A stretch of DNA of 64,000 bases, taken from assembly GCA_010692635.1 (NCBI GenBank), contig JAAHGL010000001.1, forward strand, positions 1 to 64,000, written 5' to 3'. This document shows positions 9,732 to 11,427 of the stretch, piece by piece; the first letter of the stretch is position 1; each line of letters begins with the position of its first letter. The notes under the pieces are model-generated. The model saw only the letters and a program-made list of their open reading frames with translations. It made no database searches and was not told the DNA's origin. The position numbers were made by a program, and so were the translations under genes. This stretch comes from Symploca sp. SIO2C1. GTDB lineage: Bacteria > Cyanobacteriota > Cyanobacteriia > Cyanobacteriales > Coleofasciculaceae.

Positions 9732-10631
9732 TTAATCAACTTTTGGACCAACAACCATCTGTAGAATTACTGGCTCACCATCATCGTTGTGATACTTATC
9801 ACCCCAAGCGCGAATAATTTCATCTAGTTCTTCTAGTGCTTGATCCATCTTTTCTGGTCGAATATCCAATTCTTCCAAAATTCGCATTACCTTTGGCTTA
9901 CGATCTGCCCAATCTCTCATCAAACGGAAGTATCTTGCTGTATCCTCCACCACTGTGTAAGTGCGTTCTGTGCCATCTGCTGGGGAATAGGTCGCACGGG
10001 TGAGAGCGTAGTAGGGTAATCCCCAGGGGCAATCAATGCGGGTAACTGTTCCTGAGTAGAGTAAGCGACGCTTAATATGTTCTGCCATTGCTTCACTTAA
10101 AGGTTGGCGGCGTTCCTTCGGCCAATCTTCTTGGGAGCGACTGTGGAGAAATTCAATTAATTCCAAAAACTGTAATGAATTAACAACTTGGGCATCCGGC
10201 AGGTTTTTGGGCAGTTTTTCCTGAAGTTGTCGTTTTTCTTCAGTATTTAGGCTGGTTCCTGAAATCCGGGATCGCCCAGGTTGCCAGGGATACTGTTCCA
10301 TCCAGACATAAGGAAATTGAATTAAGTAGCGAGGTTCCTGGGAACCCAGCATCTTTAACAATTTTCCTTTGGTTAAAGCTTGCCTAACTTCCTCAACAAT
10401 TACCCTGACCCGCTTTGGCTCAATATGGTGTAAATGACCTGTCATGCGGGTATTCTCACCCTGCTCCAAATAGGTCATGTAAATCGCACATTTAGCAGCA
10501 GTTGCCGCTGCATCCAAGAAAGCCCCATGTCGGTGTCCACTGGCTCTCATAGCACTGAATGCCAGATATAACATTATCTGATCCATTGCACTGGGACCAA
10601 GGCTTTTGATCAGATCGGTGTGGTTAATCAT
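9732..10631 (-). CDS. hetR: HetR, master regulator of heterocyst/pattern formation
   Basis: The product is 299 residues, exactly the length of Anabaena HetR, and aligns to it from memory without gaps. Recognisable blocks include [19 protein letters not shown] near the N-terminus, then [20 protein letters not shown] and EPRYLIQ. Residues known to matter in Anabaena are present at the same numbers: Cys48, Ser152, Ser179, Arg223 and the acidic cluster Glu253-Glu254-Asp256 of the C-terminal hood domain that binds RGSGR peptides. HetR is a DNA-binding dimer that activates differentiation and is inactivated by PatS/HetN/PatX-type RGSGR peptides. It occurs in most filamentous cyanobacteria, including species without heterocysts. 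The poly-RGSGR gene lies 313 bases upstream on the same strand. Confidence 0.97.
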
Positions 10632-10888
10632 TTATCTTAGGGGCAGTCACATTGTATGGAAACGAAACTTTTGTGCCTTCAGGGACATCCATAAACAACT
10701 CTACTCTTTTTGCTTGGGTTGCAAAAATTACAGAATTATTCTGCACGACCCCTTGGTGAAAAACTCACTGTATCTCATGATAATCGGTGAGTTCCATTCA
10801 CGCAGCAGAACGTGTTTTTAACTCAAGCACCCTAATATATGAAGCTTAATATTCTATTATAGAAAATAAAACCGGCGGTGAAAACTGG
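10632..10888. other. hetR upstream region
   Basis: About 250 AT-rich bases separate the patX terminator from the hetR start. A hetR promoter must lie here or further upstream. I see no repeat and no perfect palindrome of HetR-site type. The plus-strand open frame at 10606-10821 runs over the hetR start and has no features of a gene. Confidence 0.35.
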
Positions 10889-10922
10889 AAAAATTCCCCT
10901 TTTCTCTATTATAAAAGGGGAA
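10889..10922 (-). terminator. Rho-independent terminator after patX
   Basis: On the minus strand a 10-bp stem TTCCCCTTTT/AAAAGGGGAA (10922-10913 pairing with 10903-10894) with a 9-base loop is followed directly by five T. An outer pairing ACTGGAA/TTCCAGT extends the structure. It starts about 22 bases after the patX stop and separates patX from hetR, so the two genes probably have separate transcripts or attenuated read-through. Confidence 0.75.
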
Positions 10923-10944
10923 ATAGGAGAATCTTCCAGTCTTT

Positions 10945-11427
10945 TCATGCTTGGGCACTAACTATGAACTGTGATTGTGCTAATTCCAGGCGTCCGCTGC
11001 CTCGATAGGATAGCTCAGGAGCTAGAATTTCTGGTGACTGTGCTAATTCCAGGCGTCCGCTGCCTCGATAGGATAGCTCAGGAGCTAGGATTTCCGGTGA
11101 TTGTGCTAATTCCAGGCGTCCGCTGCCGCGATAGGGTAGCTCAGGAGCTAGGATTTCCGGTGATTGTGCTAATTCCAGGCGTCCGCTGCCTCGATAGGAT
11201 AGCTCAGGAGCTAGGATTTCCGGTGATTGTGCTAATTCCAGGCGTCCGCTGCCGCGATGAGATAACTCAAGAGCTAGGATTTCCGGTGATTGAGCCAATT
11301 CCAGGCGTCCGCTACCAGGATTGGCAAAGTGTAGTTGCAAATTTGAGCCGTAAGCAATAAGCTGGGGATCAATCAATAGAGAGATTGCAAGCAGACCCAC
11401 CAAAGTGATATATCTGAAAATACTCAT
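10945..11427 (-). CDS. patX: PatX-like secreted precursor with a tandem array of RGSGR peptides
   Basis: The 160-residue product has an N-terminal signal-type hydrophobic stretch (ITLVGLLAISLLI, about residues 7-19), then a 21-residue unit repeated about six times to the C-terminus. Each unit holds the pentapeptide RGSGR. There are five perfect copies (residues 58-62, 79-83, 100-104, 121-125, 142-146) and a first degenerate copy, PGSGR, at 37-41. Between pentapeptides the unit reads LELAQSPEILAPELSY with few changes. RGSGR is the active core of PatS and HetN and of PatX, a family linked to hetR in filamentous cyanobacteria and usually reported as a small exported protein with a C-terminal RGSGR. 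Placement directly upstream of hetR supports the call. The repeat array makes it longer than typical PatX as I know it. Confidence 0.85.
   Translation of the reverse strand: MSIFRYITLVGLLAISLLIDPQLIAYGSNLQLHFANPGSGRLELAQSPEILALELSHRGSGRLELAQSPEILAPELSYRGSGRLELAQSPEILAPELPYRGSGRLELAQSPEILAPELSYRGSGRLELAQSPEILAPELSYRGSGRLELAQSQFIVSAQA
10977..11328 (-). repeat. 63-bp coding tandem repeat (RGSGR array)
   Basis: Five nearly identical 63-base units start near 10977, 11040, 11103, 11166 and 11229, followed by a diverged unit from 11292. Each encodes 21 residues, so the frame is kept. Units differ at only a few bases, for example the RGSGR codons alternate CGA/CGC at the first Arg and the unit at 11229 has several changes. 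Such near-identity points to recent expansion or gene conversion, and the copy number is likely to vary between strains. Confidence 0.95.

Follow-up and report, generated by a model that had tools for sequence, protein, structure and literature searches.

The closest described relatives of the locus considered here are the small inhibitors directed at HetR in filamentous cyanobacteria. PatX, as characterised in Anabaena PCC 7120 and other filamentous taxa, is a small exported-type protein with an RG(S/T)GR motif and a DIF1-type promoter, and in non-heterocystous species it is linked to hetR (PMC7761841, PMC12756182). The same pentapeptide is aimed at HetR by PatS and HetN of the heterocyst formers, each of which carries a single motif within a different protein and gene context. 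In structural work on HetR the amino group of the bound hexapeptide is gripped by E254 and D256, R223 lies close to its carboxyl end, and longer N-terminal extensions of the peptide weaken binding (PMC4649674). Cuts on both sides of the motif would thus be expected to matter. Reported passages give a value of 88 nM for the binding of PatX6 (HRGTGR) to HetR, no two-hybrid signal for unprocessed PatX without its signal, and a need for the peptidase PatP (Alr1666) in PatX maturation (PMC12756182), with Alr1666 elsewhere listed as the penicillin-binding protein PBP10 (PMC7766704). The passages of the PatX literature other than Elhai and Khudyakov (2018) contain no mention of a PatX with several motifs.

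A protein of this kind is encoded in the window, the 64,000-nt stretch of contig JAAHGL010000001.1 of the filamentous marine cyanobacterium Symploca sp. SIO2C1 (GCA_010692635.1) that was analysed, 313 bp upstream of hetR and on the same strand. The features of the locus are:

9732..10631, minus strand: hetR, 299 aa; Pfam Peptidase_S48 and HetR_C, NCBIfam HetR equivalog
10894..10922, minus strand: terminator-like hairpin after the patX stop, kept in three species with few changes and weak covariation
10945..11427, minus strand: patX-type gene, 160 aa, from an ATG start; open reading frame, congener orthologues and alignment, codon-position pattern, and 27.2 bits against the NF047413 cut-off of 30
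11347..11427, minus strand: export-signal-like N-terminus MSIFRYITLVGLLAISLLIDPQLIAYG, recognised from sequence and conserved in both congeners
11257..11319, minus strand: unit 1, decayed motif PGSGR (SGSGR and VSGGS in the congeners)
11194..11256, minus strand: unit 2, HRGSGR (motif scan)
11131..11193, minus strand: unit 3, YRGSGR (motif scan)
11068..11130, minus strand: unit 4, YRGSGR (motif scan)
11005..11067, minus strand: unit 5, YRGSGR (motif scan)
10945..11004, minus strand: unit 6, YRGSGR, then the unique tail LELAQSQFIVSAQA and stop (motif scan)
11436..11468, minus strand: imperfect inverted repeat of the patX promoter; form in relatives TCCGTATCAGG-N8-10-CCTGACACGGA
11484..11489, minus strand: TCCTGA, DIF1-like -35 element 62 nt before the ATG, at a position shared with other PatX genes

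The first-pass annotation had described a 160-residue exported-type protein with five RGSGR motifs and one PGSGR in 21-residue units, and the open reading frame list, motif spacing and repeat analysis agree with it. A hydrophobic N-terminus is followed by six 21-residue units, PGSGR in the first and RGSGR in the remaining five, with an exact period (21,21,21,21,21 residues), which Tandem Repeats Finder (TRF) reports as a 63-bp unit in 5.4 copies (94 % matches; score 602). The five intact motifs are CGN-coded and lie at 10991-11256, joined by the linker AQSPEILAPELSY (linker fragment predicted on release of the motifs, LELAQSPEILAPELS). Each is preceded by H (once) or Y (four times) and followed by L. 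The hydrophobic stretch exceeds a mean of 1.6 over 11 residues, in keeping with the Sec-type start of PatX, and structure prediction returned a mean pLDDT of 50 with no usable fold; the precursor is probably exported and unfolded.

As the 63-bp period leaves both strands open, a 129-aa frame also runs opposite the array, its codon positions 2 and 3 coinciding with positions 3 and 2, respectively, of patX. Across three species comparisons the array units differ by 5.2/0.6/5.8, 3.9/0.3/8.4 and 3.7/0.9/9.3 nt at patX positions 1/2/3, so that change is least at position 2 (0.3-0.9 nt per unit) and greatest at position 3 (5.8-9.3 nt), a pattern that fits the patX frame as the coding one and on which the opposite frame was rejected as the gene. 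The N-terminus and promoter element are, moreover, conserved in three species, and the same type of protein adjoins hetR in scores of genomes. That the frame is untranslated, or that the opposite strand carries the true gene, is therefore scarcely credible despite both strands being open.

A phage origin was rejected, no viral contig encoding a relative of the protein, and a plasmid search returned only chance-like matches to pentapeptide-repeat and other proteins. Within the genome, one further exact DNA match to the RGSGR-coding sequence occurs in C243 (L008), just before a carbonic-anhydrase-like open reading frame; as it falls outside any frame of at least 60 aa it was discarded as another RGSGR gene. 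Matches to the fully degenerate RGSGR pattern were no commoner in the genome than those to a reversed control, so that a further RGSGR protein may yet exist.

On these sequence features the gene is filed here as a multi-copy PatX variant, sharing the PatX features tested, namely intact RG(S/T)GR motifs (five), the company of hetR, the hydrophobic start and the putative promoter element, save for the NCBIfam score. It differs from described PatX in its five intact motifs within a 21-residue repeat, in the L rather than R after the motif, in the Y before most motifs and in falling below the cut-off of the NCBIfam PatX model (NF047413). Only a single-copy Coleofasciculus PatX passes this model among ten further PatX forms scored, a single-copy sister (L045) also fails with 24.9 bits, and passes were recorded in only 31/388 genomes of the class; the failure is thus not treated as biology. 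The protein is unlike PatS, a peptide some 17 residues long with RGSGR at its end, in its 160 residues and internal motifs.

In 90/100 PatX-like genes the sequence TCC[GT]GA is located 50-75 nt ahead of the ATG (0.9 expected by shuffling); it is taken here as the DIF1 element. The window's TCCTGA is one base removed from TCCGGA and represents the form common to most PatX genes at that place, so that the gene appears to carry the DIF1 motif typical of PatX. In Anabaena, reported passages tie the TCCGGA form experimentally to HetZ-dependent expression of patS, patX and hetR (PMC7377430). Many patX promoters also contain the long inverted repeat (relatives L019, L020, L028, L285-L293), which stops some 8 nt short of the ATG and has its centre close to where transcription should begin. 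Among 19 relatives three have its exact form, each in a single genomic copy located at patX, and the repeat is possibly an operator for some regulator. The 313-bp spacer between patX and hetR (10632-10944) is strongly conserved among three Symploca, with the hairpin just after patX, which a terminator scan did not call, and further predicted stems. Two distinct PatX-like frames with DIF1-like elements lie upstream of hetR at each of three other loci (L174, L181, L186), where patX itself thus seems to have been duplicated.

The receptor encoded next to the array has the Peptidase_S48 and HetR_C hood domains, and retention of Arg223, Glu253, Glu254 and Asp256, as claimed at first pass, was confirmed; D270 and D278 are present too. 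The full complement of residues of the known peptide pocket is thus in place. Elsewhere, residue 254 is E in 34/34 single-copy genomes and T, A, S or Q in 8/30 multi-copy ones (L257, L261, L262, L264, L265, L273, L285 and L286, none in Symploca), a difference corresponding to only 3-4 independent pairs.

Two congeners, the marine Symploca metagenome-assembled genomes (MAGs) SIO2E6 and SIO1C2, were compared with the window, giving three assemblies of three species. Both carry orthologous arrays at the same place beside hetR, which excludes an assembly artefact, with seven units in SIO2E6 and five in SIO1C2 against six in the window, although exact counts could be off as these are short-read MAGs. 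Four motifs are intact in SIO1C2, five in the window and four in SIO2E6, while the motif of unit 1 has decayed in all three. Within the window and within SIO2E6, internal units are 0-4 of 63 nt apart, and within SIO1C2 3-11, against 12-14 for units from different species, a pattern that points to repeats being homogenised or replaced. SIO2E6 has two identical adjacent units with a broken motif, RDSGR, from which it follows that mutated copies can spread and intact ones disappear. With internal units nearly identical, selection on each copy is not demonstrable in Symploca, and recent repeat turnover may explain the exact copy number.

The three array species form one group in the HetR tree (SH-aLRT 99), adjoining Symploca SIO3C6 and SIO2E9 and nested within single-copy Coleofasciculaceae. 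In each of the two sister species a decayed motif (RGCPR) is separated by a linker (SQSTEVLTPEIYH or SQSTQVLTPEIYH) from a single intact RGSGR. These linkers match the array linker with a score of 40 against -9 (sd 9; 2000 shuffles), on which basis the array most likely grew within the genus by tandem duplication of linker plus motif. The first-pass view that the array sets the gene apart from typical PatX holds in part, in that outside the genus close relatives retain just one intact motif, whereas both congeners carry arrays and hetR-linked proteins with two to nine motifs occur in at least three other lineages.

Among filamentous cyanobacteria, multi-copy PatX precursors have originated on several occasions, and the standard annotation model misses them. 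The search for RGSGR arrays beside hetR elsewhere, proposed at first pass, covered 194 distinct regions upstream of hetR, chiefly within the order to which Symploca belongs, and 73 of these contain an RG(S/T)GR frame within about 4 kb, with more than one motif in 7/73 (three Symploca, L085, L098, L182 and L202). Searches with two of the multi-motif proteins added many more such loci, mostly with hetR close by. Among 100 distinct PatX-like frames, a set enriched by these searches and not a census, 42 have at least two motifs, with up to nine (L265, L273). The hetR-linked proteins with two to nine motifs span at least three lineages besides Symploca and are common in non-heterocystous ones. Those of families f45, f28 and f48 (L085, L255-L294) resemble the window protein in their hydrophobic start, motif number (2-9), downstream hetR and DIF1-like element, but they are older, with other and diverged linkers, periods of 10 to 30 residues and a separate origin on the HetR tree. 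Single and multiple states require at least four changes on that tree, three of them forced by well-supported branches, and the Symploca array is thus most simply regarded as a separate origin. A series of hydrophobic-start proteins with two to nine motifs upstream of hetR (L255-L284, mostly f45) goes unrecognised by the NCBIfam PatX model.

In most of the genes with older arrays the linkers between units are 5-54 % identical and motif codons differ silently; in one three-copy family of 13 genes, silent differences between genes affect 39 % of motif codons. Only intact motifs entered these counts, a procedure that favours a pattern of retention but has no bearing on silent variation inside the motifs. 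As linkers diverge while motif codons vary silently, selection appears to keep several copies in these lineages. The motif is followed by I, L, V, M or F at 106/111 sites in f45, 13/13 in f48, 13/13 in Symploca and 13/21 in f28, but at only 16/57 single-copy sites, where R is commonest. On the upstream side A or S followed by Y, D, F, W or H is preferred at multi-copy sites, sites within one family not being independent in these counts. A shared cutting signature, (L/V)(A/S)-x-RGSGR-(I/L/V), may therefore be predicted for multi-copy PatX.

The reading we prefer, with a probability of about 0.75, is that the window encodes an exported multi-copy PatX and that cleavage to either side of every motif yields hexapeptides inhibiting HetR, as the first-pass proposal of a PatX-type precursor with several identical motifs per molecule would have it. 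The precursor would be made from the DIF1-like promoter just upstream of hetR and exported, and a periplasmic PatP-like peptidase would release each motif together with the one residue ahead of it, the second cut falling behind the last Arg. Beta-lactamase-fold proteins of PF13354 and PF00144 encoded in the genome are candidates for PatP. Up to five hexapeptides would be freed per molecule, one HRGSGR and four YRGSGR. Taken up by the producing cell or its neighbours, these would bind the HetR hood domain and detach HetR from DNA in the manner of PatS6 and PatX6. Given the peptide-end contacts, the PatX6 affinity, the two-hybrid silence and the need for PatP, the array is expected to have no activity before cleavage at both ends of each motif. 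The ancestor would have been a PatX with one decayed and one intact motif, whose last linker plus motif was duplicated in tandem and is still turning over. Precursors with several copies of one signal are also exemplified by yeast alpha-factor and the neuropeptide pro-hormones, although the likeness is one of analogy only, the window protein sharing no homology with them and lacking dibasic cut sites. As nifD was not found in this 96 % complete genome, the array probably controls some HetR-dependent filament behaviour other than heterocyst formation. For such species necridia formation and filament fragmentation have been conjectured in published passages (PMC7761841).

The regular 21-residue spacing might instead suggest that the uncut array binds HetR dimers multivalently, through avidity rather than released peptides. 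This is very improbable, as tight binding is helped when the peptide ends are free (PMC4649674), two-hybrid tests with unprocessed PatX gave no signal in the passages reported (PMC12756182), the N-terminus looks exported while HetR is cytoplasmic, and other arrays vary in spacing. Somewhat less remote, but still unlikely, is an action of the released peptides on a target other than HetR in non-heterocystous species. Passages on Leptolyngbya BL0902, where the effects of patX on the transcriptome did not look HetR-dependent (PMC11298460), count in its favour and against the preferred reading, but the tight linkage to hetR and the full peptide pocket of the window HetR do not accord with it.

A greater share of doubt concerns copy number, and here the alternative contests the meaning of the repeats and not the PatX identity, with a confidence overlapping that of the preferred reading. 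One or two intact motifs may suffice, the remainder being products of slippage or unequal recombination tolerated in an unfolded protein. The near-identity of internal units within species against the 12-14 nt between them, the decay of unit 1 in all three species, the doubled RDSGR unit in SIO2E6 and the variation from five to seven units are all in line with this possibility, which we consider a real contender at somewhat below even odds; at least four intact motifs are, however, retained in all three species, and multi-copy forms arose at least three times, with older ones keeping each motif while linkers diverge. The first-pass suggestion that copy number tunes dose is accordingly a reasonable but unproven hypothesis, which the Symploca data fit no better than neutral repeat turnover. 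More doubtful again is a broader version, in which multi-copy PatX is a convergent polyprotein pro-signal of bacteria, co-evolving with the HetR pocket, and the dose of inhibitor is set by the number of repeats; loss of E254 in multi-copy genomes would then read as more peptide offsetting weaker binding.

Natural precursors with one to nine signal copies adjoining the same receptor gene provide a ready-made series for studying both the cleavage of PatX precursors and the importance, if any, of the quantity of inhibitor that each molecule carries. Passages of the survey literature report hetR without patX in 12 % of genomes (PMC12756182). Since multi-copy forms fall below the NCBI PatX cut-off, part of these genomes may contain forms missed by the model, which bears on the claim that the PatX/HetR pair dates to early multicellularity.

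Elsewhere in the window, many short tandem repeats with a 7-bp period occur (35006-35119, 26639-26692, 2766-2802 and others). A CHAT-FHA two-domain protein, joining a caspase-like peptidase domain to a phosphothreonine reader, is encoded at 6875-8533, and a repeat-rich frame of 1715 residues at 15391-20538 resembles, from the open reading frame list alone, a filamentous haemagglutinin-type secreted protein.
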